Assembly: GCA_937927755.1 (NCBI GenBank)
Contig: CALBDB010000148.1
Coordinates: 1-34,214, forward strand
Origin: an uncultured Lysobacterales bacterium
GTDB lineage: Bacteria > Pseudomonadota > Gammaproteobacteria > Xanthomonadales > SZUA-36
Reading direction: 5' to 3'
Length of the DNA stretch: 34,214 bases
Each line of letters begins with the position of its first letter. Position 1 is the stretch's first letter. The notes under the pieces are model-generated. The model did no database searches, had not been told where the DNA came from, and saw nothing but the letters and a program-made list of their open reading frames with translations. This document shows positions 1 to 21,889 of this stretch, in pieces. The position numbers and the translations under genes are program-made.

Positions 1-1110
1 TGCAGGTTTGATCTTCAGCCCACGAGAGCCTGGCAGGTCGCGGGAAACGATGTTACCGGCGAGCGACAGGAACAGGCTCGAGGTGGACAGCGCCGCAGCC
101 AGCACCGCCGGGTAGACAAACAGCTGTGCGACGATGCCGAGGTAATCCGCGACCTTGAATACTGCCTTGTCAGGGTCAACGATTGTCAGTGTGCCGTTGG
201 CCACCAGGTAAATGGCGCAGTAGCCGACCGCCATGACCATCATGCCTGCCACCATGTTGGTGAGCACTGCGTAAATGGACAATTGCGGCATGTCGCGTGG
301 GCTTCTGAGCATCAAAATGCGTGTCAGTACCTGGGGTTGGCACATGATGCCGAGCGTAGGCAGCAGCACCCAGGCAAATGAGTAGGATCCGGGCAGGCTG
401 CCCCAGGCCGTCATCGAATCCGGGTTAAGCCCGGCCGCTGCTCCCTGTTGTCCTGAGATGGCTTCCAGCACCGGGCCGAATCCGCCGGTCACTGTGAAGA
501 AAGCAATGATAAAAATAAGACCGGCCAGGACGATCACAAAACCCTGGAATGCCTGGGTGAGTATGCCGCCGATTTCGCCGCTGATGACGGTGTACGCGAT
601 GAGGATGGTGAATATCACCGCGCTGATTACGAAGCGGTTCCAGTCAAACAGGTTTTCGAAAAGCTTGGCGCAGGCTTCGACCTGGGCTGACAGGTACATC
701 ACACAACCGATAAACAGCATGATCGAAAGTATCAGCTTGATCCCGCGGTGGTGGTTAAACCGGAGATCCGAAAGGTCGCCGAGACTGGCGACGGTGCCGA
801 TTTCTGCCATACCCCGCAGCTTCTTGCCGATGACCAGGTAGCCGAACACGAACGCAGGTGCGGCAAACATGAACAGCAGGATCGTATTGCCCGTGCTGTA
901 CACCAGCCCGGGCACGCCAACCACGGCAAAGGCGCTGCCGACCGCAGCCATTGTGGCAAGACCGATCGTAACGGGGCCGAATATCTTGGCGCCGCCGAAG
1001 AACGCCTCCGGCGAGGTTACTTTTTTCTTGGCCCACAGGCCGATGCCAAAGGATATGGCAAGCACCAGGAAAGACGAGAACAGGATCAGGTACTTGGCAG
1101 ACTCACTCAT
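1..1110 (-). CDS. Sodium:solute symporter (SSS family), partial at window edge
   Basis: An open frame of 370 codons runs on the minus strand from the ATG at 1110 off the left edge, so the C-terminus is missing. The protein begins MSESAKYLILFSSFL and alternates hydrophobic helices with short loops. It has the N-terminal SSS pattern: residues FFGGAKIFGPVTIGLATMAA after helix 1, then GYLVIGKKLRGMAEIGTVAS and AYTVISGEIGGILTQAFQGF, close to proline/acetate/pantothenate symporters. Such proteins import a small, often carboxylate, solute with Na+ across the inner membrane. Its start overlaps the stop of the small membrane protein upstream as ATGA (1107-1110), implying translational coupling. The neighbouring TonB receptor suggests it carries the inner-membrane step for the same substrate. 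That substrate cannot be read from sequence. Confidence 0.88.
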   Translation of the reverse strand, partial: MSESAKYLILFSSFLVLAISFGIGLWAKKKVTSPEAFFGGAKIFGPVTIGLATMAAVGSAFAVVGVPGLVYSTGNTILLFMFAAPAFVFGYLVIGKKLRGMAEIGTVASLGDLSDLRFNHHRGIKLILSIMLFIGCVMYLSAQVEACAKLFENLFDWNRFVISAVIFTILIAYTVISGEIGGILTQAFQGFVIVLAGLIFIIAFFTVTGGFGPVLEAISGQQGAAAGLNPDSMTAWGSLPGSYSFAWVLLPTLGIMCQPQVLTRILMLRSPRDMPQLSIYAVLTNMVAGMMVMAVGYCAIYLVANGTLTIVDPDKAVFKVADYLGIVAQLFVYPAVLAAALSTSSLFLSLAGNIVSRDLPGSRGLKIKPA

Positions 1111-1574
1111 GCCTGCCCCTCCTTGTCCCTGTCGCCATCCTCACTCATGGGCTCGTGCACTTGACGGACGAAGTCATCCCAGCGCTCCTGCGACAACCAG
1201 CGGTCCTTGACCATTTCGAATCCAAAACCCATCAGCAGGGTCGGTACCACCCAGAACAGCACGACGATCGCGGCGAACGAGGGGTGGAAGCCGAGGATCG
1301 TGAAATCGGGGTATTGACCGGCAAATGCCAGGGCATAATGGTCGCCGAGCCAGAATGCCGCAGCCCACATAATGATCCATACCAGGGCGGGGAAGGCTAC
1401 CAGCTTCAGGTCGAAGCGCCCTTTGTGAGATGACCCGAGCACGCCGTAAATCAACAATAAGCCCAGCAACACATAGAGCCCGGCGAGCCAATGCCCGGTG
1501 CCCGCCAGGCCGACCATCATGATCCATAAAACCGCGCTCAGTGTTATGAGCGATGTTTCAACATTAAATTTCAT
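1107..1574 (-). CDS. Small integral membrane protein, probable partner of the SSS symporter
   Basis: A 155-residue protein with about four hydrophobic segments (roughly residues 8-28, 30-47, 57-76 and 97-117) and a charged C-terminal tail rich in Asp, Glu and Lys. I see no enzyme motif. The ATGA overlap with the symporter, and the position directly upstream on the same strand, suggest a membrane partner. Some SSS transporters have short accessory subunits of this kind, such as the DUF4212-type small subunits, but this one is longer and I cannot confirm membership. No clear Shine-Dalgarno precedes the ATG at 1574, where the upstream bases are pyrimidine-rich. Translation may therefore be weak or depend on the upstream hairpin. 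Confidence 0.7.
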   Translation of the reverse strand: MKFNVETSLITLSAVLWIMMVGLAGTGHWLAGLYVLLGLLLIYGVLGSSHKGRFDLKLVAFPALVWIIMWAAAFWLGDHYALAFAGQYPDFTILGFHPSFAAIVVLFWVVPTLLMGFGFEMVKDRWLSQERWDDFVRQVHEPMSEDGDRDKEGQA

Positions 1575-1598
1575 TGAGGGAAATTGGTGATGGTACCA

Positions 1599-1624
1599 GC
1601 GGGCCCATATGTAAATGGGCCCGC
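1599..1624 (-). terminator. Strong hairpin between receptor and symporter genes
   Basis: GCGGGCCCAT (1599-1608) and ATGGGCCCGC (1615-1624) form a perfect 10-bp stem with a 6-nt loop. It lies 12 bases past the receptor stop and 25 bases before the small membrane protein start, all on the minus strand. No U-run follows it in either direction. It is therefore either a partial terminator or an mRNA 3'-end stabilising/processing hairpin that would set receptor and symporter levels apart. Confidence 0.5.
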
Positions 1625-1636
1625 CACGTACTTACA

Positions 1637-3985
1637 TCAGAACCAGTTGAACTGCACGGTACCCCAAATCTGGCGGGGGTTGCCGTAGAACGCAGTGACG
1701 TTATTTTCGAGGCCAAGGCCCGGGAAGTAGTAACCGGCTACCTTGTACTCTTCATCGGTCAGGTTCTTGCCATGTAGACCTGCACTCCAGCGGCCGCTGT
1801 CATCCGCCCATACCAGGCTCAGGTCCCAAAGTGTATATGAGTCCTGGTCAAGCTCGGGTGTGGGAATTTCAAACTGGCTGGTCTCGCCCCGGTACGACAG
1901 GGAGGTAATGAATGAAAACGTACCCGGAGTGTTGAAAAGGTTAACAGGTATGTCGTAGGTCAGCGCACCGGTTGCAGTCCAATCCGGTGTATTCTGGAAT
2001 ACCCGCTCATCCGCCACGTCTTCGCCTGTCGGGCCAATAAATTCCTTGTATTCGGCATCAATATAACCAACTGACCAACCCAGGCGTAAGCTGCTGCCAG
2101 CCTTTACAAGGTCATCAGCCAGGATGGCCTGGCCTTCCCATTCAATACCATTGATATCTGCAGCACCGGCATTGGTGGTAATACCAATAAAGGTGTCTTC
2201 AAGACCATCACCCGTTGTGTCCACACCAACGGAACCCGGTACCTGTACATCGGTGTAGTCGGAGAAGAACACGGAGAGCTTGGAGGTCATGCGGCCCTGC
2301 GCAAGCGTGGCCTTCCAGCCGAACTCAATAGTCTCAACGGTTTCCGGATCGAACTTCATGTATTCAAATATTTCTTCTTCGGAGACAACGCCATTACCAT
2401 CAGAGTCCGGAGCCGCAGTGGTCTGACCGCGTGGGTCAAAACTGCCGCCCTTGAAGCCTTCGCTGTAAGAACCGTAGATCAGGTGATTGTCACTGGGTGT
2501 CCAGTCAACAGCCAGGCGGGGTGTGAAATCGCTGAAAGTCTCCGAACCGTGGAAATCGGATGTCGTTGCAATCGGAATCGCGCTGCCGCCAAAGATAGGT
2601 GACGTTCCTCCAATTTTGCTTTGTCTCAACACCGTTGAAGTGCGCTTGTCTTCGGTATATCGACCACCAAGCGAAACACTCCACGCATCTGTAATGTTAT
2701 AAGTGAAGTCGCCAAATACCGACCAGGTCTTTGTGTTGACATCACCTTCCGTGAAAGCATTAAAGCCCGGCAATCCAATGAGACCGCCAAGCTGGGCAAG
2801 GATTACATCAAAAGCGGTGTGTGCGTTGGCGTCGAGGTAATAGAAACCAAGCAGACCGGACCAGCGGTCGGCAGAGAACAGCATCTGGAGTTCTTCGGAG
2901 AACTGGTCATTGTCGTAAATGGCGGGCACATCGAGATCAGCTGCCGGCAAACTGTCAAAATCAATTGGCGTCCAGCTCTCATCATCACGGGAAGACACGA
3001 TATTTTTGAATGTTATCAGGTCACTGGCATTCCATTCGGCCAGCAGGGACCAGCCCTTTGCCTCCACAGATTGTGTAGGATTATTGAGGCCTGCTTCCGT
3101 GTCATAGACATTTTTCAGCACGGGGTTGCCAGAGACAGTAGCAGGATACAGGCGATGTCCCTGTCTTGGATCAGAATCATCCTCTACATAGTCGGCTGCA
3201 AACCTCAGGAACCAGTCCTCGTTAGGTTCCCACTCGGCGCTGAAGCGGGCACCCAGTACATCCTTGTTGTAGTTTTCCACGCCCTTGATATTGAGGTTGT
3301 CACCAAATCCGTCACGATTGAAGCTGGCAACCGAAGCGCCGATCCTGAAGGTATCGCCCAGTGGCATAGAACCGGTCAATACCAGGTCGAGCATATTGTC
3401 GGTACCGTAGGAAAACCGCACGTTGCCTTCCGTGCTATCCGGGTTGAGACGCTTGGTGACGTACTTGATGGCGCCGCCGATCGTGTTACGGCCGTACAGG
3501 GTACCTTGTGGTCCGCGCAGAACTTCGATACGTTCCACGTCATAGATATCCATCACTGCTGCCTGCGGACGATTCAGGTAGACATCGTCGAGGTACAGTC
3601 CGACACCGGACTCAAAACCTGCAACCGGATCCTGCTGGCCCACACCACGGATAAATGCAGTCAACGTGGTGTTGGTGCCACGTGAGACCTTGAGTGTCGT
3701 GTTTGGGGACATCTGTGCGATATAGGTAATATCCAGGGCACCAAAAGCCTCGAGTTCTTCACCTGAAAAGGCTGAAACCGCGATCGGCACTTCCATCAGG
3801 CTCTCTTCCCGGCGCGTGGCCGTGACGATCACTTCTTCGAGCGTGTTATCGTTTTCTACAGCTACGTCTTGTGCAAACGTTGCCGTGGTTGTCATGGACA
3901 TTGCGAGCAGACCGCTTGCAGTGGCCATTGAAAACCCTCGCCATGCAATCGGTTTGCTCCTTCGGTTTATGGTGGATCTGGTCAT
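1637..3985 (-). CDS. TonB-dependent outer-membrane receptor
   Basis: A 782-residue receptor for energised uptake across the outer membrane. The start at 3985 is chosen over upstream ATGs at 4063 and 3997 because GGAG sits six bases before it and a signal peptide follows directly (hydrophobic to about residue 38, cleavage near TFA/Q). A TonB-box-like EEVIVTATRREESL lies near residue 50. The plug domain follows, with VPIAVSAFSGEELEAFG, IRGVGQQDP, YLDDVYLNRPQ and VEVLRGPQGTLYGRNTIGGA-type motifs. The rest is a beta-barrel with alternating aromatic strands, ending in NWF, the usual C-terminal Phe. This plug type is common in receptors of sphingomonads and marine Gammaproteobacteria that take up organic compounds as well as siderophores. 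Position beside a symporter and opposite an esterase/acyl-CoA operon favours an organic substrate over iron. This is inference. Confidence 0.93.
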   Translation of the reverse strand: MTRSTINRRSKPIAWRGFSMATASGLLAMSMTTTATFAQDVAVENDNTLEEVIVTATRREESLMEVPIAVSAFSGEELEAFGALDITYIAQMSPNTTLKVSRGTNTTLTAFIRGVGQQDPVAGFESGVGLYLDDVYLNRPQAAVMDIYDVERIEVLRGPQGTLYGRNTIGGAIKYVTKRLNPDSTEGNVRFSYGTDNMLDLVLTGSMPLGDTFRIGASVASFNRDGFGDNLNIKGVENYNKDVLGARFSAEWEPNEDWFLRFAADYVEDDSDPRQGHRLYPATVSGNPVLKNVYDTEAGLNNPTQSVEAKGWSLLAEWNASDLITFKNIVSSRDDESWTPIDFDSLPAADLDVPAIYDNDQFSEELQMLFSADRWSGLLGFYYLDANAHTAFDVILAQLGGLIGLPGFNAFTEGDVNTKTWSVFGDFTYNITDAWSVSLGGRYTEDKRTSTVLRQSKIGGTSPIFGGSAIPIATTSDFHGSETFSDFTPRLAVDWTPSDNHLIYGSYSEGFKGGSFDPRGQTTAAPDSDGNGVVSEEEIFEYMKFDPETVETIEFGWKATLAQGRMTSKLSVFFSDYTDVQVPGSVGVDTTGDGLEDTFIGITTNAGAADINGIEWEGQAILADDLVKAGSSLRLGWSVGYIDAEYKEFIGPTGEDVADERVFQNTPDWTATGALTYDIPVNLFNTPGTFSFITSLSYRGETSQFEIPTPELDQDSYTLWDLSLVWADDSGRWSAGLHGKNLTDEEYKVAGYYFPGLGLENNVTAFYGNPRQIWGTVQFNWF

Positions 3986-4058
3986 TGTTTTCTCCATCTC
4001 TGTGCGCTTGAGTGCCGGTATTCCTGGAATAATTGTATTTGTTTCGAACACCGGGATC

Positions 4059-4093
4059 GGCAAATAAACTTGCCAATTGCGTCAAAGTTTGCC
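4059..4093. promoter_or_regulatory. Candidate TetR operator in the divergent promoter region
   Basis: The 120-bp gap between receptor and TetR genes holds overlapping symmetric elements. GGCAA (4059-4063) pairs with TTGCC (4070-4074) across 6 bases. GGCAAA (4059-4064) also pairs with TTTGCC (4088-4093), and AAACTT (4066-4071) with AAGTTT (4085-4090). It lies 13 bases before the tetR start codon and about 75 bases before the receptor start. An autoregulatory TetR operator controlling both transcripts is plausible. No experimental consensus was matched. Confidence 0.4.
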
Positions 4094-4105
4094 ACATTAT
4101 GAAAT

Positions 4106-4720
4106 ATGAATCAAGTTTCAAGTAATAACAAAAAGCCAAAAACGGCACGCGGCAGAAAAACCCGCGGTAAATTGCTGGAAGCGGCTGAGATCGAATTCGG
4201 AGCAAAAGGATTCCACGAGGCAAGCATCAGCGGTATCACCTACCGTGCCGGAGTGGCGCTCGGTACCTTCTACACATATTTTGAAAGTAAGGAGGAAATT
4301 TTCCGGGCGCTGGTACGTTATATGAGCCGCCTGACGAGGGAAACGGCTTCCGAGACGATTGCCGGCATCACAGATCGCCTGGAAGCTGAGCGCAAGGGTA
4401 TCGAGGCGTACATCGAATTCGCCCGCCAGCACAAGAGCATCTACCGCATCATTACCGAAGCCGAGTTCATAGCACCAGAGGAATATCGTGCTCATTACGA
4501 GGGTTTTAGCCGCGGTTACCAGTTTAATCTCGAGAAGGCCGCCCTGAAAGGACAAATTCGTGAGGGTGACTTCGAAACCTGGTCCTGGGCAATTATGGGT
4601 GCCATAGTCTTCCTGGGTATGCGGCATGCTGATTGGGACGACAGCCGCCCGGCTTCGGCAATAGCTGATATTGTCGTTGACCTGATTGCCAGGGGTATCG
4701 GACCGGAGACAAAAACATGA
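4106..4720 (+). CDS. TetR/AcrR-family transcriptional regulator
   Basis: A 204-residue protein with the N-terminal TetR helix-turn-helix: KTRGKLLEAAEIEFGAKGFH (about residues 19-38), then ASISGITYRAGVALGTFYTY and FESKEEIF. The C-terminal ligand-binding half is all-helical and divergent, as is usual for the family. Most members are repressors relieved by a pathway metabolite, often an acyl-CoA or the inducing substrate. It is the first gene of the plus-strand operon and diverges from the TonB receptor, so it is well placed to control both arms. Its stop overlaps the next start as ATGA. No Shine-Dalgarno is visible before the ATG, which suggests a low level of translation. Confidence 0.92.
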   Translation: MNQVSSNNKKPKTARGRKTRGKLLEAAEIEFGAKGFHEASISGITYRAGVALGTFYTYFESKEEIFRALVRYMSRLTRETASETIAGITDRLEAERKGIEAYIEFARQHKSIYRIITEAEFIAPEEYRAHYEGFSRGYQFNLEKAALKGQIREGDFETWSWAIMGAIVFLGMRHADWDDSRPASAIADIVVDLIARGIGPETKT

Positions 4721-5754
4721 CGCATATGGGTATCGTTTCCACTGGCACCTGGTTTCCGGAAACCTATATCACAGCGGCAGAAATCGCAGAAAAAAGCGGA
4801 ATGCCCGAATGGGTGGTTCGCGAAAAGCTTGGCATCGAGCGCAAGCATGTTGCTGATCCAGAGGTCCATCCCAACGACATGGCTGTGAACGCGGCACAAA
4901 AGGCGATTGACAAGGCAGGCATTGACCCGATGGAAATCGACGTCGTGCTCTGTACCACCGAGGAATGGCGGGAGCACCTGTTATGGACCACTGCCATTGA
5001 TCTCGGCTACCGGGTCGGAGCGAAAAACGCCTGGGGACTGGATATTCACACGCGTTGCGCCACGACCGTTGCCGCACTGAAACTGGCCCGCAGCCTGATG
5101 GCCGACGATCCCTCGGTCAATACCGTGTTGATTGGCGGTGGTTACGCAATCTCACATTTCATCGACCTGACCGATGTAAACACGTCATTTCTTTTCAACA
5201 TCGGCGCAGGTGCCGGAGCAATGATCGTCAAGCGTGACTGGCCTGAAAACAGGGTGCTCGGTAACCACCTGATAGCAGACGGCGTGATGAGCCGTCACGT
5301 GATCGTACCTGCCAGCGGTACGGTGCAGCCCCCCACAGACGAAGCAGTACGCGCTGGCGGTTTCAAGTTCCGGCTGGTGGAACCCGAGTCTATGAAGACC
5401 CGGCTCGGCGAGGTCTCAATCAGCAACTGGCTGAAATGCGTAGATGTTGCGCTTGAGAAATCGGGCAACAAGAGTGACGGAACGCCCTATACGCGTGACG
5501 ATATCGATTTTTTCAACATGTCCCTGGTCAAACCATCCGCCCACCGCGAAATGCTCGACCACCTGGGTCTCAGCGAAGAGCAGAGTGTCTACATTTCCGA
5601 TATCGGGCATATCGGTGAGCAGGACGCCATCATCAATATCGAAAAAGGTATTGAACAGGGTCGCCTGAAGCCGGGCGATACGATGGCGATTATCGCTGCC
5701 GGCATCGGTTATGTCTGGGCAGGGGCGATCGTTCAATGGGGACCGGCAAAATGA
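4717..5754 (+). CDS. Atypical beta-ketoacyl synthase III (FabH/thiolase-like) enzyme
   Basis: A 345-residue thiolase-fold protein of FabH-like length. It has the opening GIVSTGTWFPE, the segment WVVREKLGIERKHVAD, and a Cys nucleophile at C114 (DIHTRCATTVAALKLARS), matching the catalytic cysteine of FabH. The other two catalytic positions differ. The PHQAN-type His motif is replaced by KPSAHREML (H276), and the GNTSAAS-type Asn motif by GHIGEQD (H298). The enzyme should therefore not be assumed to start fatty-acid synthesis. FabH relatives with altered residues act as acyltransferases or in retro-Claisen-type reactions on acyl-CoA. It overlaps both neighbours (tetR and the acyl-CoA ligase) by ATGA, which places it firmly in the catabolic operon. 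A beta-ketoacyl-CoA cleaving or condensing step is my inference. Confidence 0.8.
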   Translation: MTHMGIVSTGTWFPETYITAAEIAEKSGMPEWVVREKLGIERKHVADPEVHPNDMAVNAAQKAIDKAGIDPMEIDVVLCTTEEWREHLLWTTAIDLGYRVGAKNAWGLDIHTRCATTVAALKLARSLMADDPSVNTVLIGGGYAISHFIDLTDVNTSFLFNIGAGAGAMIVKRDWPENRVLGNHLIADGVMSRHVIVPASGTVQPPTDEAVRAGGFKFRLVEPESMKTRLGEVSISNWLKCVDVALEKSGNKSDGTPYTRDDIDFFNMSLVKPSAHREMLDHLGLSEEQSVYISDIGHIGEQDAIINIEKGIEQGRLKPGDTMAIIAAGIGYVWAGAIVQWGPAK

Positions 5755-7280
5755 AACAATCCTCTCATTACGCAACAGACTGGCTCGACAAACGGGCAAA
5801 GCTGACGCCTGACCGTACGGCCCTGATCGATTACGCCAGTGGCTCGGAAACAAGCTACGCCGAATGGAACAGGCGTGTTAACCAGGCCGCGAATTACCTC
5901 CGGAGCCTGGGTGTGACAAAAGGCGACCGGGTCGCTGTGTATGCCTCGAACAGGCCCGAGTACCTGGACCTGTTCTGGGCTGCGCCAAAGATTGGTGCGG
6001 TGCTGCAAAACCTGAACTGGCGTCTGACGGTGCATGAATTGATCAGTATCGTCGAGAGTGGGGAGCCCTGTGTGCTGGTGTACAGCGAGGACTGGCGGGC
6101 GCAGGTCGTAGAGCTCAAACCGACCTTCACCACGGTGAAGCATGTCGTCGCCATGACCAACCCCGGGCAAGGTGAACGCGACTTCGCGGAACGGGATGCG
6201 ATGAGCGCGGTGTTGGAAGACATCCCGGATCTGGATATGGACGACCCGTGGGGTATTTATTACACCGGCGGCACAACGGGGCTGCCCAAGGGCGCCGTCG
6301 TAACACACGGGAACGTGACCTGGAACAGTGTTAACACGATCACTTCATGGGGCATCAACGGCCAGCACAAGGCAGCCGTGCAATTACCCTTCTTCCACAT
6401 TGGCGGGCCGATGATCTTTATGGTGCCGTTGGTACACGCCGGCGGCACCAACATCCTGTGTTCCGGCTTTGACCCTGATGAGACCTTCGACCTGGTGGAG
6501 CATTCAGGGATCACCCACTATGTTGCGGTGCCGACAATGTTCCAGATGTTGCAGGAGCACCCGAGATGGGATCAGGCCGATTTTTCGAAACTGGAACTGG
6601 TTATCTCCGGCGGCGCACCTTGCCCGCTCCCGATCATGGAGAAATTCTGGGCGCGGGGGATCGATTTCAAAATGGGATATGGCCTGACCGAGGCCTCCGG
6701 CAATAATTTCTGGCTGCCGCAGGAACTGGTGCGGAAGAAAATCGGCTCTGTTGGCTATCCGATCTTTCACATAGACATGAAGACCATTCACGAGGACGGT
6801 TCCGACTGCAAGGATGGTGAGGCGGGCGAACTGTTGATCCGTGGTCCACACGTTATGGCTGGATACTGGCGAAACCCCGAAGCAACCACGGACACCATTC
6901 GCGATGGCTGGCTCCATACCGGTGATACCGCGGTACGCGACGAAGACGGCTGTTTTTCGATTCTTGGTCGTTCAAAGGAGATGTTTATCAGCGGCGGCGA
7001 GAATGTTTACCCCGCTGAAATCGAATCCGTTCTGCTGGCTCACCCCGAGGTGCTGGAGGCGGCCGTCGTCGGTGTGCCGAACGAGACCTGGGGAGAAGTT
7101 GGCCGGGCTTACGTCGTGGTTTCTGATGGTTATGACGAGGAAAACTTACGCACATTCCTCGGGGAACGACTGGCGCGTTACAAGCTGCCGCGCAAGATCG
7201 TCGTTCTTGAGGCACTGCCGCTGACTGCAATTGGTAAAATCGATAAAAAGTTGCTGGAATCCAAAGAGGTTACGGAATGA
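5751..7280 (+). CDS. AMP-forming acyl-CoA synthetase (ANL superfamily)
   Basis: A 509-residue cytosolic ligase that activates a carboxylic acid to its CoA thioester with ATP. Motifs are in order: the phosphate-binding loop YYTGGTTGLPKGAVVTHGN (about residue 170), GYGLTEASGNNF (about 310), GWLHTGDTAV (about 386), GRSKEMFISGGENVYPAEIE hinge region (about 405-425), and the catalytic C-terminal Lys in PLTAIGKIDKK (about 493). The start at 5751 is preferred over the ATG at 5736 because it forms ATGA with the preceding stop and follows a GGGGAC purine run. Family members include medium-chain, long-chain and aromatic acid ligases, and substrate cannot be fixed by eye. In this operon it probably activates the acid released by the esterases. 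Confidence 0.92.
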   Translation: MKQSSHYATDWLDKRAKLTPDRTALIDYASGSETSYAEWNRRVNQAANYLRSLGVTKGDRVAVYASNRPEYLDLFWAAPKIGAVLQNLNWRLTVHELISIVESGEPCVLVYSEDWRAQVVELKPTFTTVKHVVAMTNPGQGERDFAERDAMSAVLEDIPDLDMDDPWGIYYTGGTTGLPKGAVVTHGNVTWNSVNTITSWGINGQHKAAVQLPFFHIGGPMIFMVPLVHAGGTNILCSGFDPDETFDLVEHSGITHYVAVPTMFQMLQEHPRWDQADFSKLELVISGGAPCPLPIMEKFWARGIDFKMGYGLTEASGNNFWLPQELVRKKIGSVGYPIFHIDMKTIHEDGSDCKDGEAGELLIRGPHVMAGYWRNPEATTDTIRDGWLHTGDTAVRDEDGCFSILGRSKEMFISGGENVYPAEIESVLLAHPEVLEAAVVGVPNETWGEVGRAYVVVSDGYDEENLRTFLGERLARYKLPRKIVVLEALPLTAIGKIDKKLLESKEVTE

Positions 7281-8344
7281 GCACTGCCGTACTCGATGGT
7301 GTTACCGCCCGCACCATCACGACAGATCGATTGACTACCAGGGTGTTGTTCACAGGCCCTGACGATGGCATTCCCGTACTGTTTATCCATGGCAATTTCT
7401 CTTCCGCCACCTGGTGGGAGGAGACCATGCTCCAGTTACCGCCACGATACCGCGGGATCGCGCCCGATCAACGTGGTTATGACGGGGCGGACCCTGATGC
7501 CAGGATTGACGCCACGAGGGGTATGGGCGATTTTGTGGATGATGCGCTCGCATTGATGGATCATCTCGGTCACGATCGTTTCCACCTGGTCGGAAACTCG
7601 CTCGGCGGCCTGGTCGTATGGTGGATGATGGCGGACGCGCCCGGGCGCCTGGTTTCAGCCACTCTCGCCGGTCCCGGTGCTCCTTTCGGTTTCGGCGGGA
7701 CCAAAGATGCCACCGGCACACCAACCACGCCGGATTATGCAGGCTCGGGCGGGGGTCTGATCAACCCTGTCCTGATCCAAAGCCTGCTGGATGATGACCG
7801 TGATTCGATTTCCGATTTCAGCCCGCGTGGCATCATGCGCCGATTGGTCTGGAGCGGTGGTGACATTCCGCAGCGTGAAGATGCGTTTATCGATGCAATG
7901 TTCCGGGTGCACATCGGTGACCGCCAATTGCCTGGAGACAAGGAAGAATCACCGCACTGGCCGTTCGTGCGGCCGGGTAAATGGGGTGCTACCAATGCCA
8001 TGTCACCCAAATACGTCGGTGACCTGGTCGAGCGGATACTCGCTGCCGAACCCAGGAGTCATGTATTGTGGGTCTATGGCGCCGATGACCTGGCAGTATC
8101 AAATACCGCGGCTTCAGACCCCGGCACCTGGGGTCCGACCGGGCGCTTGCCTGGTTTCCCGGGTTCCGAAGCCTACCCACCTCAACCGATGATGGACCAG
8201 ATTAGCAAGATGCTTGAAGATTACGTGTCGGTAGGTGGATCTTACGAGGAGGTGGCCATTCCCGAATCCGGCCACGTGCCATTTATTACACACCCCGAAG
8301 AATTCAACCGGGTATTCCATGCCCATCTTGACAAAACAAGTTGA
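7277..8344 (+). CDS. Alpha/beta hydrolase (cytoplasmic esterase/lactonase-like)
   Basis: A 355-residue alpha/beta hydrolase. The oxyanion strand is VLFIHGNFSSATWW (about residues 34-47), the nucleophile elbow is LVGNSLGGLVV with Ser near residue 108, the acid is in WVYGADDLAVS and the His in PESGHVPF near the C-terminus. The lid between the elbow and the acid residue is long. It includes a stretch rich in Gly and Pro around residues 140-160. No signal peptide is present, so it acts in the cytoplasm, in contrast to the secreted esterase encoded next. The start overlaps the ligase stop as ATGA. Likely roles are hydrolysis of an imported ester, oligomer or lactone. Specificity is unknown. Confidence 0.88.
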   Translation: MSTAVLDGVTARTITTDRLTTRVLFTGPDDGIPVLFIHGNFSSATWWEETMLQLPPRYRGIAPDQRGYDGADPDARIDATRGMGDFVDDALALMDHLGHDRFHLVGNSLGGLVVWWMMADAPGRLVSATLAGPGAPFGFGGTKDATGTPTTPDYAGSGGGLINPVLIQSLLDDDRDSISDFSPRGIMRRLVWSGGDIPQREDAFIDAMFRVHIGDRQLPGDKEESPHWPFVRPGKWGATNAMSPKYVGDLVERILAAEPRSHVLWVYGADDLAVSNTAASDPGTWGPTGRLPGFPGSEAYPPQPMMDQISKMLEDYVSVGGSYEEVAIPESGHVPFITHPEEFNRVFHAHLDKTS

Positions 8345-8357
8345 GCGGAGGCCGATC

Positions 8358-9332
8358 ATGAAATTACCTTATCTATTATTAATGCTTGTTGCCAACACGC
8401 TGATGGCTGGTGAGACCCCGGTATTAAATATCGACAAGAGCCGTGTTACAACCTCGGGCATTTCCGCAGGCGCCATCATGGCCCACCAGTTACATATCGC
8501 CTATTCAGACATATTTTCCGGTGCCGGGATTGTATCGGGCGGGCCATACAACTGTGCAGAGAATTCCATGCTCACGGCCATATCCAGATGCATGATGAAT
8601 ACCGATGAGCCACTGCCGGTTTCGGAGTTTGTCGCCGCAATCCACTCTGCGGCTGAGGCAGGCGGAGTCGCGGACACCGGGAACCTGGCAGATGACCGTG
8701 TTTGGCTTTTTCACGGCACGAAGGATTCCAAGATTTCTGCCGAGGTCCACAGTGCGGCAGCAACCCTATATGCCGAGTTCATTCCCGTGGAACAGATGCA
8801 CAGTGTGGATGACGTTGTGGCCGAACATGTTTTTCCGACAATGGACCAGGGTAACGACTGCATGGAAATGGTATCGCCATTAATAGGTGATTGTGACTAT
8901 GACGCAGCCGGTGAGTTGCTCTCATATTTGTACCCCGGCCTGGAGACGCCCGGCGCCGAAGTTAAAACAGGACTACTGGAAGTCACCCTGCCGGGAGCCG
9001 GCGAGGCCAATTTACTGGATGCAGCCTACCTTTACGTACCCCCAGCGTGCGGTGAAGCTGACAACAGTTGTGCACTTCACCTTGTTTTGCACGGCTGCGC
9101 CCAGTCGGCTGAAACGGTCGGCACCGAGTTTATCGAACTGAGCGGCTATCTGCCGTGGGCCGAGGCCAACGATATCGTGATGGCATTCCCGCAGGTTAAA
9201 CCAAGCATGGTTGCACCCATAAACCCGCATGCCTGCTGGGATTGGTGGGGCTATACCGGTGACGACTACGCAAAACGAAACGGCAAGCAGATGCATACGC
9301 TGGTCGACTGGATCAATGGTTTGTCGCAATAA
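8358..9332 (+). CDS. Secreted type-2 (circularly permuted) PHB-depolymerase-like esterase
   Basis: A 324-residue protein with a signal peptide (MKLPYLLLMLVANTLMAG) at the chosen start. That ATG follows GGAG by seven bases. An in-frame extension to 8235 would lie inside the preceding gene and is rejected. Catalytic elements occur in the order lipase box GISAG (Ser36), Asp123 (LFHGTKDSKIS), His157 (AEHVFPTMDQG), then oxyanion motif VLHGCAQS at 242-250. This order, with the oxyanion segment after the lipase box, is that of type-2 extracellular polyhydroxybutyrate depolymerases and is permuted relative to type 1. There is no C-terminal substrate-binding or linker domain, and about six Cys residues may form disulfides. 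It probably acts in the periplasm or outside on short polyester or oligomer substrates rather than on crystalline PHB. The 13-base gap to the hydrolase implies co-transcription. Confidence 0.86.
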   Translation: MKLPYLLLMLVANTLMAGETPVLNIDKSRVTTSGISAGAIMAHQLHIAYSDIFSGAGIVSGGPYNCAENSMLTAISRCMMNTDEPLPVSEFVAAIHSAAEAGGVADTGNLADDRVWLFHGTKDSKISAEVHSAAATLYAEFIPVEQMHSVDDVVAEHVFPTMDQGNDCMEMVSPLIGDCDYDAAGELLSYLYPGLETPGAEVKTGLLEVTLPGAGEANLLDAAYLYVPPACGEADNSCALHLVLHGCAQSAETVGTEFIELSGYLPWAEANDIVMAFPQVKPSMVAPINPHACWDWWGYTGDDYAKRNGKQMHTLVDWINGLSQ

Positions 9333-9366
9333 GCTGTATCCAGCCTGATTCAAAAGGAGCAACACA

Positions 9367-9807
9367 TTGTCTGCAAGTGAATTAAACGGCTACTACTTCG
9401 AGGATATATCTGTCGGGATGACGGCCAGCTTTGGTAAGACACTGACCGAAGCAGATGTGCTGATGTTTGCCGGTGTCTCCGGCGACATTAACCCGTCCCA
9501 TATCAACGAGGAGTTTGCAAAAACCACGCGTATGAAAACACGCGTGGTTCACGGCATGCTGTCCGCCAGCCTGATCTCGGCCGTGCTGGGGTGCAAGCTT
9601 CCCGGTCCGGGTTGTTTATATGTCAACCAGACATCGAATTTCAGGGCCCCGGTATTCATCGGTGAAACGGTTACAGCCCGTGCAACGGTGACCAGGCTGG
9701 ATGCCAAGCGGAACTTTGTTGAATTCGAAACCATTTGTGAAGTCGATGGCAAAACCGTTGTTGACGGCTCCGCTTTGTTATGGGTGCCCTCAAAGGAAAG
9801 TAAATAG
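9367..9807 (+). CDS. MaoC-like (R)-specific enoyl-CoA hydratase
   Basis: A 146-residue single-hotdog protein. The hydratase-2 signature is ADVLMFAGVSGDINPSHINE, with the catalytic pair Asp40 and His45 at the same five-residue separation as PhaJ, followed by VVHGMLSASLISAVLG. These enzymes interconvert trans-2-enoyl-CoA and (R)-3-hydroxyacyl-CoA, linking 3-hydroxyacid monomers to beta-oxidation. Translation starts at TTG (9367), supported by a strong AAAAGGAG seven bases upstream. No ATG lies between that Shine-Dalgarno and the conserved core. It lies 34 bases after the depolymerase-like gene, which makes (R)-3-hydroxyacyl chemistry the natural reading of the operon. Confidence 0.88.
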   Translation: MSASELNGYYFEDISVGMTASFGKTLTEADVLMFAGVSGDINPSHINEEFAKTTRMKTRVVHGMLSASLISAVLGCKLPGPGCLYVNQTSNFRAPVFIGETVTARATVTRLDAKRNFVEFETICEVDGKTVVDGSALLWVPSKESK

Positions 9808-9864
9808 CAGCTGAGTATTCCGGTCCTTTCTCACGGCCTTTATGTCGGTCTGTATACTGCGTAG

Positions 9865-11148
9865 ATGCAAATAAGAACAGCCAATCCCAAGAATTCCCGG
9901 CGTCTGTCCGACAGCCGTGCATACGTGTTGTTTATCCTGGTGCTGGTTTACACATTCAATTTTATAGACCGGCAGATCGTGGGGATTCTCGCCGTTCCAA
10001 TCAAGGCAGAGCTGGGTCTCACCGATGGCCAGCTGGGCCTGATGGGCGGTTTGGCATTTGCACTTTTTTATACCGGGCTGGGCATACCGGTGGCGATGCT
10101 GGCAGACCGTTTCAGCCGGACCTGGATCATGACCGCCGCATTGGCTATCTGGAGTCTGATGACAGCGGTTTCGGGGCTGGCCACCAATTTCTGGCAGTTG
10201 TTTGCCGCCCGGCTTGGTGTTGGGGTGGGCGAAGCGGGTGGTGTTGCCCCGGCGTATTCACTGATCTCGGACTACTTTCCACCTGGGCAGCGTGCTCGGG
10301 CAATTGGCATCTACTCCTTCGGAATCCCGATTGGCAGTGCGACCGGAATTGTGTTCGGGGGGATCATAGCCAGCCTGATCGATTGGCGTTACGCATTCTT
10401 TATCGTGGGCCTGGCCGGTCTTCTGCTGGCGCCGGTATTCAGGATGACTGTCAGGGAACCAGAACGTGGCCGGTTTGACCGCTTGCGAAATAAAAGCGAG
10501 GCGCCCGGGCTTAAACTGATATTGCAAACACTGGCAGGAAAACCGAGTTTCTGGTTGCTGGCCCTTGGTGCTTCATTTTCGTCGATGATCGGCTATGGAA
10601 TTTTCTTTTGGCTGCCCTCTTTCTTTGTGCGCAGTTACGGCTTATCCCTGCTGAACGCATCGCTTTTCTACGGCGCAATATTGTTGCTTGGCGGGATAGC
10701 CGGTATCTGGTCGGGTGGCTGGCTGGGTGATCGTTTTGGCCAGGAAAGACGTGCCCAGTACGCAAGAATACCGGCGATCGCTTTCCTGTCCACCGTACCA
10801 TTCTATGTGCTGGCAATCCTGTCGCCCAACCTGGCGTTAAGTTTCTTTATTTTCCTGGTGCCCACGGCGCTGGGGCTGGCATGGCTTGGACCCGTGATGT
10901 CTGCATTGCAGCACCTGGTCCGGCCTGATATGCGGGCAACCGCATCGGCGGTATTTCTATTCATTATCAACCTGGTCGGCATCGGCGTGGGTACCTATGC
11001 AATCGGCGCTCTGTCCGACACGCTGGCAGCCCGGTTCGGTGACGATTCATTACGTTTTTCCATCCTGGCCGGTACCGGCTTTTACATTATTGCAGCGTTC
11101 CTGTTCTTGCTGGCTTCACGCTGGCTGGAACGGGACTGGGAAGATTAA
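9865..11148 (+). CDS. Spinster-like MFS transporter
   Basis: A 427-residue protein with about twelve membrane helices. Family features are YTFNFIDRQIVGILAVPIKA in helix 1, the loop 2-3 motif with ADRFSRTWIM, and GVGVGEAGGVAPAYSLISDY in helices 4-5. The last resembles Spns/bacterial spinster-like MFS proteins, which often accompany lipid, steroid or aromatic catabolism genes. A second half-motif, GGWLGDRFGQERR, lies near residue 285. The protein may import a hydrolysis product or export a by-product. A TATACT sequence at 9853-9858 directly before the ATG, and a weak Shine-Dalgarno, raise the chance of an internal promoter with a very short leader. The downstream gene follows after 20 bases. 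Confidence 0.9.
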   Translation: MQIRTANPKNSRRLSDSRAYVLFILVLVYTFNFIDRQIVGILAVPIKAELGLTDGQLGLMGGLAFALFYTGLGIPVAMLADRFSRTWIMTAALAIWSLMTAVSGLATNFWQLFAARLGVGVGEAGGVAPAYSLISDYFPPGQRARAIGIYSFGIPIGSATGIVFGGIIASLIDWRYAFFIVGLAGLLLAPVFRMTVREPERGRFDRLRNKSEAPGLKLILQTLAGKPSFWLLALGASFSSMIGYGIFFWLPSFFVRSYGLSLLNASLFYGAILLLGGIAGIWSGGWLGDRFGQERRAQYARIPAIAFLSTVPFYVLAILSPNLALSFFIFLVPTALGLAWLGPVMSALQHLVRPDMRATASAVFLFIINLVGIGVGTYAIGALSDTLAARFGDDSLRFSILAGTGFYIIAAFLFLLASRWLERDWED

Positions 11149-11168
11149 ATTGAATTTTGGAGAAAGAA

Positions 11169-11912
11169 ATGAGTTTGGCAGATCAAAAAGTTGTTGTTAT
11201 CACGGGTGGTGCACAGGGAATTGGGCTGTGTGCTGCAGAACGCTTCGCCGAAGAAGGCGCCACCGTTTCCATCTGGGATTTTAACGAGGAAAAGGGCAAC
11301 GCAAGTGCAGCCTCACTGCAGGCAAAGGGTTACCCGGTTCGTTTCCAGCAGGTAAATGTTGCGGATATGGAATCTGTCAAAGCGGCAGCGGAAACCTTGC
11401 AACAGGACACCGGCAGAATCGATGTGCTGGTAAACAACGCCGGCATCACGCGTGACGCCACGTTGTTAAATATGACCGAGGAACAATGGCAGCAGGTGAT
11501 AGACGTCAATCTCAATGGCGTATTCAACTGTACCAAGTCTATCGCCCCGTTCATGGTAGAGCAGGGCTCCGGCTGCATCATCAACACCTCGTCGGTGGTT
11601 GGGCTGTATGGCAACTTTGGCCAGACAAACTATGTGGCAACCAAGTCCGGCGTCATCGGCATGACAAAAGTATGGGCACGTGAACTGGGCCGTAAAGGCG
11701 TACGCGTCAATGTCGTCGCACCGGGCTTTATCGCCACCGACATGATCGATTCGGTGCCCGAAAAAGTCATCGAGGCGATGGTTTCCAAGACCCCGCTGGC
11801 ACGGACCGGAAAGCCCGAAGATATAGCCAATGCCTATATTTTCCTGTCGTCCGATATGGCGGGATTTATCACCGGAACCGTGATCAGTGTGGATGGGGGA
11901 CTGGTCACCTGA
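11169..11912 (+). CDS. Short-chain dehydrogenase/reductase (FabG/PhaB-like)
   Basis: A 247-residue classical SDR. The nucleotide-binding motif TGGAQGIG lies at about residues 12-19, NNAGITRDATLLNMT near 87-101, and the catalytic Ser (INTSSVVG), Tyr155 and Lys159 (TNYVATKSG) follow. The C-terminus VISVDGGLVT is that of 3-oxoacyl-ACP or acetoacetyl-CoA reductases. The nearest functional guess is an NAD(P)-linked 3-hydroxyacyl/3-oxoacyl dehydrogenase. The ATG at 11169 is preferred to the TTG at 11157 because GGAG stands six bases before it. As last gene of the operon, followed by terminator hairpins, it would oxidise the hydroxyacyl-CoA made upstream. Confidence 0.9.
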   Translation: MSLADQKVVVITGGAQGIGLCAAERFAEEGATVSIWDFNEEKGNASAASLQAKGYPVRFQQVNVADMESVKAAAETLQQDTGRIDVLVNNAGITRDATLLNMTEEQWQQVIDVNLNGVFNCTKSIAPFMVEQGSGCIINTSSVVGLYGNFGQTNYVATKSGVIGMTKVWARELGRKGVRVNVVAPGFIATDMIDSVPEKVIEAMVSKTPLARTGKPEDIANAYIFLSSDMAGFITGTVISVDGGLVT

Positions 11913-11988: not shown

Positions 11989-13023
11989 CTAAGCAGTCGA
12001 TGTGGGGTGGTTAATGGCCAGGTCCTTGCTGGTATCTGACCACCACTCCAGGTATTTCTCGGCTGATTTACGTCCGGATTCCACCAGTTGTTTTTTGCGG
12101 CTATCGCTTAAATCAAACTCGGTTGTGCCGACGCCAAGTGAGTCTATGTAGACCGTTCTGTGCCAATCGTCGCTATGCAGGTGCTGGCTGTTTTGAACAG
12201 CAAGTACTGTCTTGATCAGTTCCATCGTGTAATCCATAAAATGCTCGATCTCATTGCTCTGCGGTTCCTGTCCGTCACGAAATACGGCAATTTCTTTTTC
12301 CGAATCCAGGCGGAACCCAAGGGTTTCCTTGTTATATATGTACGGACTGCTATCGGGTAGTGTTTCGGCAATCTTCTTGTTTTCATTCTCGTAGTACGGC
12401 GGGATTCTCGTCAAACTTGGATCGGACAGGTATTTATCACGATCGAAAAGTTTTACCGGGTAATTATTGATTACACCACCGTCAACAAAAACGTCCTCGC
12501 GGTCATCACGCACCGCGCGAAAGAAAAGGGGTATGGACATTGATCTTCGAACGGCATCTACCACTCTCATGCGGGGGGTATGCTCGGGAGAATAGACTTC
12601 TCCAAAATTGGTGGAGATATTCGAAGCGTAAACATAAAGCTCTTTGCCTGAGTGCTCGCGCAAGGCTTTAAATGTGATATTCGAACTGCCGGTTTTCTTC
12701 TTTAATAGACCGCCGATCCACTCTTTGAAAAAATTTCCCTTGTACCAGCCAAATTGCTCTCTCAGCCGGTTCATGTCACGCAGCTTGCCCCAGCTATCAT
12801 CTTTGAAGTCATTAAAATCCAATTTTTTCAATTCGTTATACGTTGCCGTGTTGCTGAACCCTGCAGCAAACAACACCGCATTAATCGACCCGGCGGATGT
12901 GCCTCCGACCCTGGTGATATTTTGCAGAATGCCTTCTTTCTCCAATGTTCTCATCGCACCAACATATGCGATTCCTTTAACACCACCGCCTTCAAATATT
13001 AAGTTCCTGAATGGATAGGTCAT
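11989..13023 (-). CDS. Patatin-like phospholipase
   Basis: A 344-residue patatin-fold lipid acyl hydrolase. The oxyanion motif GGGVKG is at residues 12-17, the nucleophile elbow GTSAG at 41-45 (Ser43) and the catalytic Asp in VDGGVINNYPV at Asp181, giving the Ser-Asp dyad. The start at 13023 is chosen because a good Shine-Dalgarno, GGGAGGATCGAAA, precedes it and the conserved core begins at once. The upstream ATG at 13104 adds 27 non-conserved residues. No signal peptide is visible, so it is cytosolic or delivered in another way. The roughly 150-residue C-terminal part after the DGG motif is charged and has no motif I know. The gene stands alone on its strand. Patatins include phospholipases A and secreted toxins, and no toxin-specific feature is evident here. 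Confidence 0.9.
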   Translation of the reverse strand: MTYPFRNLIFEGGGVKGIAYVGAMRTLEKEGILQNITRVGGTSAGSINAVLFAAGFSNTATYNELKKLDFNDFKDDSWGKLRDMNRLREQFGWYKGNFFKEWIGGLLKKKTGSSNITFKALREHSGKELYVYASNISTNFGEVYSPEHTPRMRVVDAVRRSMSIPLFFRAVRDDREDVFVDGGVINNYPVKLFDRDKYLSDPSLTRIPPYYENENKKIAETLPDSSPYIYNKETLGFRLDSEKEIAVFRDGQEPQSNEIEHFMDYTMELIKTVLAVQNSQHLHSDDWHRTVYIDSLGVGTTEFDLSDSRKKQLVESGRKSAEKYLEWWSDTSKDLAINHPTSTA

Positions 13024-13158
13024 TTTCGATCCTCCCGAGTATGTGACTGACCGGTTTGCAGCCGGCTCAGTGGATTTGCGGATTTGCAGTTTGGTTATCG
13101 GCAAAGGCCGCAGAAACTCTGCAGGCCCCTGTTAAGAGCCCGCAGAATCAACAAATCA

Positions 13159-13406: not shown

Positions 13407-14903
13407 ATGTCGTTCCAAAAACCTGATTTCAAACCGCAATATGAAAATTACATTGGGGGCGAATGGGTCGCCCCCGCTGATGGTGACTATTTTGAAAATA
13501 CCTCACCCATAGATGGAAGCGTTATTGCAAGGGTGCCGAGGTCCAATGCCAATGATATTGACATGGCAGTCAAAGCCGCCTGGAAAGCTGCCGATGCCTG
13601 GGGCAAGGTCCCGGCGTCCGAGCGTTGCAACATTTTGTTCCGGATCGCTGCACGTATCGAGGAGAACCAGGAATTACTGGCTGTGGCAGAAACCTGGGAT
13701 AATGGTAAGGCGGTAAGGGAAACGATGGCGGCTGATATCCCATTGGCCGTTGACCATTTTCGTTATTTTGGCAGTGTGATCCGTGCAGAAGCCGGACAGG
13801 TGGCTGATATTGACGCAGGCACTGTTTCCATGGAAATCCACGAGCCACTGGGTGTCGTGGGGCAAATCATCCCCTGGAACTTTCCTATTCTTATGGCCAC
13901 ATGGAAATTGGCGCCAGCGCTGGCTGCCGGTAACTGCGTGGTTCTTAAGCCCGCCGAGCAAACACCCGTATCCATTTTGATGCTGGCGGAAATCATCGCC
14001 GATTTATTACCGGCCGGTGTTTTGAACATTGTGAATGGATTCGGTCCGGAAGCTGGCAAACCACTGGCGACACACCCTGATATCAAGAAAGTTGCATTTA
14101 CCGGTGAAACCACGACCGGTCGGCTCATCATGCAGTACGCATCCGAGAATCTTATCCCCGTGACACTGGAGCTCGGTGGTAAATCCCCTAATATTTTCTT
14201 TGAAAGTGTCATGGCGGAGGACGATAACTTCCTCGACAAGGCCATTGAAGGTCTGGTGCTGTTTGCATTCAACCAGGGAGAGGTGTGCACCTGTCCATCG
14301 CGGGCATTGATACAGGAGAGCATCTATGAAGAGTTCATGGCTCGCTGCCTGAAACGAATTGAGGCCATCCAAATGGGCGACCCTCTTGAGCTGACTACAA
14401 TGATGGGTGCACAGGCATCGAATGACCAGTATGAGAAAATTCTGAATTACATCGATGTCGGCAAACAGGAAGGTGCGGAGGTCCTGATTGGCGGTGAGGC
14501 CTACCAGAATGAGACCTACCCTAATGGCTACTATGTCAAACCCACCGTGTTCAAGGGCAATAACAAGATGCGAATCTTTCAGGAGGAAATTTTCGGTCCG
14601 GTTTTGAGCGTGACAACTTTCAAGGATGAAGCTGAAGCGATGGAAATCGCCAATGACACCTTGTACGGCCTGGGTGCCGGCGTCTGGACGCGTGACGTAC
14701 ACCAGATGCAGACATTCACCCGTGGTATCCAGGCGGGCCGCATCTGGTGCAATTGCTACCACGCCTATCCCGCTGGTGCGTCGTTTGGCGGCTATAAGAA
14801 ATCCGGCATCGGGCGTGAGAATCACAAGATGATGCTGGGTCATTATCGCCACACAAAGAACGTGCTGATGTCTTACGACAAGAATCCTCTTGGCTTTTTC
14901 TGA
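13407..14903 (+). CDS. NAD(P)-dependent aldehyde dehydrogenase (AldB/ExaC-like)
   Basis: A 498-residue aldehyde dehydrogenase that oxidises an aldehyde, probably acetaldehyde or another short chain, to the acid. Visible residues are the oxyanion Asn in IIPWNFP (N158), the general base in [14 protein letters not shown] (E255) and the catalytic Cys294 in [20 protein letters not shown]. This [10 protein letters not shown] motif is shared with E. coli AldB and Pseudomonas ExaC. The C-terminal [20 protein letters not shown] is also typical. GGAG seven bases before the ATG supports the start. A DUF779 gene follows, the usual partner of this ALDH subgroup. It is not clearly linked to the acyl-CoA locus to the left. 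Confidence 0.93.
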
Positions 14904-14914
14904 CGAAATCAGGG

Positions 14915-14939
14915 CGGGCAGTTCACCAGGAACTGCCCG
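14915..14939 (+). promoter_or_regulatory. Intercistronic hairpin between ALDH and DUF779 genes
   Basis: CGGGCAGTTC (14915-14924) and GAACTGCCCG (14930-14939) form a perfect 10-bp stem with a 5-nt loop. It begins 12 bases after the ALDH stop and ends 8 bases before the DUF779 ATG. With no T-run it is probably a partial terminator, an RNase-processing point or a translational control hairpin that lowers DUF779 output relative to ALDH. Confidence 0.5.
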
Positions 14940-14947
14940 TATTACCG

Positions 14948-21867: not shown

Positions 21868-21889
21868 AGCCGGAGATTAATCTCCGGCT
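21868..21889. terminator. Perfect 22-bp palindrome at the convergent SEL1/parC ends
   Basis: AGCCGGAGAT and ATCTCCGGCT (21868-21889) form a perfect palindrome with effectively a TA centre. The parC stop codon lies inside it. It can form a GC-rich hairpin in transcripts from both directions, so it probably acts as a shared terminator. No T-run is present. Confidence 0.6.

Follow-up and report, generated by a model that had tools for sequence, protein, structure and literature searches.

The locus and its genes

The window analyzed here spans an entire contig of 34,214 bases (CALBDB010000148.1, called C148 below) from an uncultured Lysobacterales bacterium, and positions 1-11912 carry a locus that probably serves to scavenge short (R)-3-hydroxybutyrate oligoesters, that is, fragments of polyhydroxybutyrate (PHB), or a very similar 3-hydroxyacid ester. 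The locus consists of two divergent operons, a TonB receptor/symporter arm and an eight-gene arm, and its hallmark gene encodes a protein of the KAS III type, referred to as the KAS III-like protein. Gene families were assigned with Pfam and NCBIfam, and both the matches and the coordinates agreed with the initial annotation, which had described divergent operons with all of these families and three ATGA overlaps in the second operon; every gene that it had named was present (Table 1).

Table 1 Genes and features of the locus at the start of contig C148
Feature	Position	Strand	Evidence or remark
SSS-family sodium:solute symporter, cut by contig end at base 1	1..1110	-	PF00474, E 2.4e-17
Small membrane partner of symporter, 155 aa	1107..1574	-	Adjoins SSS gene, ATGA overlap
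TonB-dependent outer-membrane receptor	1637..3997	-	PF00593, E 2.8e-39; PF07715, E 9.2e-18
Imperfect 21-bp palindrome across TetR start codon, candidate operator	4100..4120	+	Kept in relatives
TetR-family regulator	4106..4720	+	PF00440, E 1e-12
KAS III-like protein, NF005308/PRK06840, hallmark gene	4717..5754	+	403.1 bits, cut-off 315
AMP-forming acyl-CoA ligase	5736..7280	+	PF00501, E 5.4e-87; start 5736 or 5751
Cytosolic alpha/beta hydrolase, Ser108-Asp271-His333	7277..8344	+	PF00561, E 3e-19; triad from conservation
Single-domain type-2 polyhydroxyalkanoate (PHA) depolymerase, 325 aa	8355..9332	+	NF050059, 323.7 bits, cut-off 280
MaoC-type enoyl-CoA hydratase	9367..9807	+	PF01575, E 6e-23, 81 bits vs 27
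MFS transporter	9865..11148	+	PF07690, E 5.6e-52
SDR, FabG-type 3-oxoacyl reductase/dehydrogenase	11157..11912	+	NF004198, 308 bits vs 296

The three overlaps of the second operon lie at 4717-4720, 5751-5754 and 7277-7280, the middle one presuming 5751 as the start of the ligase (5736 also has an in-frame ATG), and a fourth at 1107-1110 links the symporter with its small partner, for which no match was found in Pfam or NCBIfam. The open reading frame of the TonB receptor extends to a TTG at 4063, and the start ATG at 3997 was picked by eye. No thiolase gene was found within the locus.

Conservation of the gene set in related genomes

The gene set was followed through 61 genomes (the window's own genome and 60 relatives), with the KAS III-like gene counted at E ≤ 1e-40. 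The gene was found in 12 of them, all belonging to the same family as the window; the search covered 37 genomes of that family. Within the clade its closest companion is the hydrolase, which was present in the same 12 genomes and in one more (G369), where it sits 491 bases from the contig start and its neighbour may fall off the contig. Fisher p for this co-occurrence was 7e-12, and for the PHA depolymerase, found in all 12 genomes and in 11 others, it was 8e-7, both without correction for kinship.

All 11 neighbourhoods of relatives were then compared, two of which (L049 and L053) end at contig ends. TonB, TetR and ligase genes accompany the KAS III-like gene in 10 of the 11, while in L055 nothing but the hydrolase remains with the KAS III-like gene. 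The TonB receptors of these 10 are 33-87% identical to that of the window, and a ligase orthologue with 72-82% identity is present in eight relatives; in L052 and L057 the ligase is just 37% identical, and L055 has none. The SSS symporter was found in four relatives (84-92% identical), in all of which the small partner adjoins it (68-80%), and an MFS orthologue (70-81%) lies beside or near the TonB gene in six. Near the TonB gene, the SSS pair and the MFS gene replace one another among the relatives, and the window carries both. We also counted locus families obtained by BLAST clustering, in which the members of the SDR, ABC and ligase families may include outsiders. Over the 12 clade loci including the window, this gave hydrolase in 11, TetR in 11, TonB/SSS/MFS in 11, ligase in 10, PHA depolymerase in eight, SDR in seven, MaoC in four and thiolase in one. 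The core of the locus is conserved among the relatives and the tail is variable.

Scatter of these genes in homologous neighbourhoods, which the initial annotation had named as the observation that would speak against it, was looked for, and the core was found to co-occur. Its proposal of a locus that leads from uptake to acyl-CoA for a 3-hydroxyacid ester is borne out in so far as the core is clustered in relatives. The exact gene set that it listed held only for this core, since MaoC and SDR vary from locus to locus and SSS and MFS interchange. The cluster of L050 adjoins a 750-aa topoisomerase IV/gyrase subunit A gene (670-2922), and the window has a homologue of this gene at 21877-24129, hinting at a shared chromosomal site.

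Spread beyond the clade

In a scan of named genome contigs, 80 loci were obtained as the best 80 of 414 relatives, and after removal of L060, L061, L062, L064 and L082 (on contigs already counted) and L116 (missed in the family step), 74 other loci were left. Among these 74, a ligase or CoA-transferase occurred in 55, an LIV-type ABC permease in 51 (any ABC part in 54), an SDR in 49, a hydrolase from one of three families in 41 and a TetR gene in 27, and thiolase genes lay within about 10 kb of the KAS III-like gene in 26. In the 41 loci flanked by 5 kb or more on either side, the counts were 38 for ligase or CoA-transferase, 35 for any ABC part, 28 for hydrolase, 23 for SDR, 17 for TetR and 17 for thiolase. 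The transporters vary by lineage and the core stays.

The lineages among the matches listed were Bacillota, Acholeplasma, Chloroflexota, Ignavibacteria, Rhodocyclales, Spirochaetes, Acidimicrobiia and others, so that the NF005308-family gene occurs in catabolic clusters of several bacterial phyla, and it also occurs on haloarchaeal plasmids. Ten such plasmids matched the KAS III-like protein with 33-37% identity; in all three of those that were read (L150-L152) the KAS III-like gene ends an LIV-type ABC operon, with a ligase and a hydrolase nearby in two of the three. In wider draws that included the own genome, the gene was over the cut-off in 3 of 369 genomes of the class and reached E ≤ 1e-70 in 1 of 398 of the phylum, and it is therefore rare and patchy in these draws. 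The tree placed the window protein within a Pseudomonadota/Acidimicrobiia clade near Chloroflexota, which, with caution for long branches and mixed bins, suggests gene transfer. In L063 (JAOZRW010000025.1, 10001-11035), an Acidimicrobiia metagenome-assembled genome (MAG), the KAS III-like gene is 81% identical to that of the window, LIV-type ABC genes lie downstream and no TonB gene was found within the available stretch; this reflects either a transfer in which the transporter was exchanged or a mixed bin.

Several other features of these loci were recorded. In L069, L073 and L079 (Chloroflexota/Ignavibacteria) there is a second KAS III-like gene, about 28% identical, accompanied by a thiolase-domain protein and by a small partner, which in L069 bears ChsH2 zinc-ribbon/OB-fold domains. 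A family of large proteins (f17) was found within 10 kb in 11 of the 74 loci, including L086, L095, L109, L114, L128 and Chloroflexota loci; the 1,088-aa member in L114 has TPR repeats and a bacterial transcriptional activator (BTAD) domain, and with this domain present the idea of a MalT-like regulator beside many clusters was dropped. An acyl-CoA dehydrogenase and both Etf genes lie near the KAS III-like gene in eight of the 74 loci. One of the loci with such genes, L102 from a sheep-colon Clostridia MAG, also has MaoC, thiolase and a Cat1-like CoA-transferase, a gene set that we read as a butyrate-type route. In the ruminant-hindgut Clostridia loci L102, L106 and L115, the upstream MaoC, acyl-CoA dehydrogenase and EtfBA genes (domains checked in L102) suggest fermentation to butyrate.

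The esterase, the hydrolases and the probable substrate

The esterase of the window matched the PHB depolymerase structures 2d80/2d81 at E 1.5e-48 over residues 21-320, nearly end to end. Its lipase box is GISAG with a hydrophobic x1, and Ser37, Asp124 and His158 (the triad by alignment), followed by the oxyanion His246 (H246-G-C), are invariant in all eight cluster homologs (the 11-member family minus three duplicate loci). The curated type-2 model NF050059, whose cut-off the window protein exceeds, was matched by the same 8/8 homologs at E ≤ 1e-70. In PMC2666664, type 2 is defined by GxSxG with a hydrophobic x1 and an oxyanion hole C-terminal to the triad, and the window esterase fits both the residue order and the lipase box. 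It thus shares its sequence over residues 21-320, the GISAG box and the C-terminal oxyanion His with the type-2 extracellular short-chain-length PHA (scl-PHA) depolymerase of Penicillium funiculosum. Unlike the extracellular type-2 scl-PHA depolymerases, the window enzyme, known from its sequence, has no linker or substrate-binding domain (the model ends at residue 321) and may be periplasmic, although the solved Penicillium chain (318 aa, aligned at 3-310) likewise has no room for such a domain. The N-terminus is hydrophobic and was judged by eye to be a putative signal peptide, and the enzyme is predicted to be periplasmic or extracellular.

A second PHA depolymerase family was found in the clusters of other phyla. 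The abh11 hydrolase of the Bacillota and Acholeplasma clusters matched NF050089, the intracellular PHA depolymerase model, in all 25 members (E ≤ 1e-80), and it matched the PHB depolymerase structure 8ynv at E 2e-120. In 10 of the 24 abh11 loci the genomes were searched, and in all 10 the copy at the cluster's coordinates was over the NF050089 cut-off and was the sole copy (E ≤ 1e-40). These clusters therefore carry a true relative of the intracellular depolymerase of native short-chain-length PHA (nPHA-scl), whose Bacillus thuringiensis seed is given in PMC2666664. For the hydrolase family of the window, shared with Chloroflexota, the best PDB match is still 8ynv, at E 5.5e-32 and only over profile positions 20-210 of 355; its Ser, Asp and His are invariant in the 22 of 28 members that were aligned, duplicates and cut ones being omitted. 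In the clade, the SDR in the cluster of L058 is a 3-hydroxybutyrate dehydrogenase (TIGR01963, 311 bits against 307; NF009093, 286 against 258), and the cluster of L054 encodes an acetyl-CoA acetyltransferase that is truncated where the contig ends.

The initial annotation had left the substrate as an ester or 3-hydroxyacyl compound. A 3-hydroxyacid ester stands, and the two PHA depolymerase families together with the 3-hydroxybutyrate dehydrogenase of L058 narrow it, so that oligo-3-hydroxybutyrate or a close ester is what the locus quite probably uses. No PhaC_N match was found in the own genome, which is 97% complete (the same search was positive in 1 of 14 controls); turnover of stored PHB in this genome was therefore rejected, and the locus is read as one for scavenging rather than storage.

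An altered active site in the KAS III-like protein

The NF005308 family carries the name 3-oxoacyl-ACP synthase. An AlphaFold2 model of the KAS III-like protein (pLDDT 94.4) has the KAS III fold, with a best Z of 37.6 across 317 residues at 2.5 Å; the fold search picked out no single KAS III subgroup, and OleA structures were among the matches. We aligned 54 sequences (the window and 53 of the 80 named loci) and compared them with 16 FabH proteins from 16 of 27 loci, and a smaller alignment added two HMG-CoA synthases. The fold, the length and the Cys nucleophile of FabH are shared, the Cys being kept in 54/54 (Cys114 in the window). In contrast to FabH, the catalytic His is absent in 54/54, its position being taken by Leu, Ser, Ile, Val or Gln, and His replaces the Asn in every sequence (His298 in the window), so the Cys-His-Asn triad of KAS III was not found in a protein that has the KAS III fold. 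Glu82, Glu83 and Glu86 are invariant in the same 54 sequences. Cys114 and His298 are also invariant in five haloarchaeal and gammaproteobacterial homologs with 34-37% identity. Glu82 aligns with the Glu of the ATE/TTE motif of the two HMG-CoA synthases, but it is Ser in three haloarchaeal homologs, and HMG-CoA synthase keeps the His and Asn that this family has lost.

A role as FabH was rejected, as the triad is changed and a protein search of the own genome found two other KAS III-like genes (26% and 25% identical). The initial annotation was right that the locus has no thiolase, and the thiolase Pfam domain (PF00108) had no match in the KAS III-like protein itself. The own genome has nine Thiolase_N matches, none of them on contig C148, and six elsewhere reach at least 165 bits. 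With this altered active site, and with thiolases encoded both near the gene in other loci and at other sites of the own genome, the KAS III-like protein is probably not a FabH, and a thiolase role is not required of it. It may, tentatively, be a CoA-dependent acyl transferase that uses Cys114 to exchange a 3-hydroxybutyryl ester with CoA (thiolytic release).

Regulation and flanking genes

The two arms are separated by 108 bases if the TonB receptor starts at 3997. The 21-bp palindrome at the TetR start is near-exact in the window, exact in eight and near-exact in one of the 10 TetR-bearing relatives, and absent from L057. Its pattern gave one site in the window against 0 expected, a count that is partly circular because the pattern came from the relatives, and the right half of the palindrome is coding, so that conservation there is confounded. 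No second site was found in the window, a stricter pattern matched 0 of 147 loci, and a consensus promoter/terminator scan of 3800-4200 found nothing. The shared intergenic region and the conserved palindrome make joint control of both arms a candidate. The best NCBIfam match of the TetR protein was the ScbR autoregulator family, at 52 against 150 bits and thus far under the cut-off.

Directly past the SDR gene, on the opposite strand, lies a patatin-like phospholipase gene (11989-13104) with no counterpart seen in the relatives' stretches, followed by a separate small pair of an aldehyde dehydrogenase and a DUF779 protein at 13407-15331. No tRNA gene was found in the 34,214-base window.

Proposed route and its alternatives

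Starting from the genes, families, clustering across genomes and altered active site that were directly observed, we propose the following route. The TonB receptor would import oligomers across the outer membrane, the secreted depolymerase would cleave them, and the SSS pair or the MFS transporter would take small acids or oligomers into the cell. 3-Hydroxybutyryl units would then be freed and activated by the cytosolic hydrolase and the KAS III-like enzyme, the latter working as an acyl transferase through Cys114 and not as a condensing enzyme or thiolase, and the ligase would activate free acid. The SDR would yield acetoacetyl-CoA, MaoC could yield crotonyl-CoA, and the thiolases encoded elsewhere in the genome would complete the route, with TetR governing both arms.

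Several observations weigh against this proposal. The window hydrolase fails the curated PHB depolymerase model NF050089, with 55.7 against 300 bits, and the x1 of its lipase box is Asn and not Trp (Asn in 15/22 and Trp in 4/22 of its family), while Trp at x1 is the criterion for an intracellular nPHA-scl depolymerase with lipase box in PMC2666664. The window SDR is of the FabG type and falls below the 3-hydroxybutyrate dehydrogenase model NF009093 (200.9 against 258 bits). None of 12 genomes from other lineages that have the KAS III-like gene yielded a type-2 depolymerase, a weak negative as 14 controls were also silent, and at that strength this depolymerase was dropped as a general companion of the gene. 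No hydrolase of the three families was found in seven Rhodocyclales or betaproteobacterial loci mapped. Orphan copies of the KAS III-like gene exist (L034 and L036), and binding of CoA or an ester by the KAS III-like enzyme is hypothetical. These orphans come from two genomes of another gammaproteobacterial family (G104 and G221), whose loci L034, L035 and L036 stand outside the 74-locus counts. Each of the two genomes has two divergent KAS III-like paralogues outside such clusters, and the copy in L035 adjoins an acetyl-CoA hydrolase/transferase.

Some of these points fit a second reading, in which the same architecture serves another substrate (short hydroxyacid esters, lactones, algal or lipid esters, or a hydroxyacid polymer) and the hydrolases have drifted. 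The alpha/beta hydrolase fold is common to many esterases, the window hydrolase lacks the PHA-type lipase box, the type-2 depolymerase has the weak 0/12 result in other KAS III-like genomes, the TonB receptors of the clade drop to 33-37% identity in four loci, and the TetR protein is nearest to the ScbR family, if only at 52 against 150 bits. The convergence of two PHA depolymerase families and a 3-hydroxybutyrate dehydrogenase on one substrate argues against it, and we regard this reading as possible, at roughly one chance among several.

Somewhat less likely, in our view, is the suggestion of the initial annotation that the KAS III-like protein supplies the thiolase activity lacking in the locus, or a variant in which it is another enzyme that forms or breaks C-C bonds. 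The retained fold and Cys nucleophile would suit such an enzyme, as would the alignment of Glu82 with a Glu in HMG-CoA synthase, itself an enzyme of C-C chemistry, and a thiolase occurs in the cluster of only one of the 12 clade loci. Yet the catalytic His of FabH is missing and its Asn is His throughout the alignment, the protein has no thiolase Pfam match, 26 of the 74 other loci have thiolase genes close by and the own genome has six elsewhere, and the substitute-thiolase claim was not upheld.

A biosynthetic set for a beta-lactone or olefin, after the OleA-OleB-OleC-OleD pattern, would have the same four superfamilies (KAS III-like, hydrolase, AMP ligase, SDR) in one operon, and OleA structures do appear among the fold matches. 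The nucleophile of OleB is Asp. That of the hydrolase family is Ser in 22/22, and on this ground the OleABCD-type set was rejected; moreover, the best matches of the ligase are CoA ligases, the sequence match to OleA is weak (E about 2e-5), and the TonB, importer and PHA depolymerase genes point to uptake, which together make this reading very improbable. That the genes are ordinary neighbours without common function, which the differing tail genes and the orphan copies in G104/G221 might suggest, is scarcely credible and was rejected for the core, which recurs in relatives and in other phyla with the Fisher p given above.

Relation to known systems and meaning

PhaZa1 of Ralstonia is a depolymerase and not a KAS III-fold protein. 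Thiolytic mobilisation of PHB by PhaZa1, in which CoA cleaves the polyester to 3-hydroxybutyryl-CoA, is discussed in PMC7147478, and the KAS III-like enzyme would share this proposed logic of CoA cleavage. A bolder and less likely extension of the acyl transferase idea, though one slightly ahead of the thiolase alternative, is that NF005308 represents a novel enzyme type, a CoA-dependent depolymerase of the thiolase fold that uses Cys and His for thiolysis of oligo-3-hydroxybutyrate, and is the hallmark of a pathway of PHB-fragment scavenging across bacteria and haloarchaea. If true, thiolysis would save the ATP that hydrolysis plus ligase costs, and the name 3-oxoacyl-ACP synthase would be wrong; in any case, the core enzyme is probably mislabelled in databases.

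In a literature search, largely at abstract level, PRK06840 was unmentioned and no description of this cluster was found. The pathway is conserved, built of ordinary parts and, as far as the literature was searched, apparently undescribed. PHB is widely used by bacteria for storage and is sold as a bioplastic, and to our knowledge the capture and use of its soluble fragments are poorly described. The locus would thus represent a widespread gene cluster for the use of PHB fragments, with a marker gene that is labelled as a fatty-acid enzyme in databases, and the reaction of the KAS III-like enzyme is directly testable in culturable Bacillus relatives.

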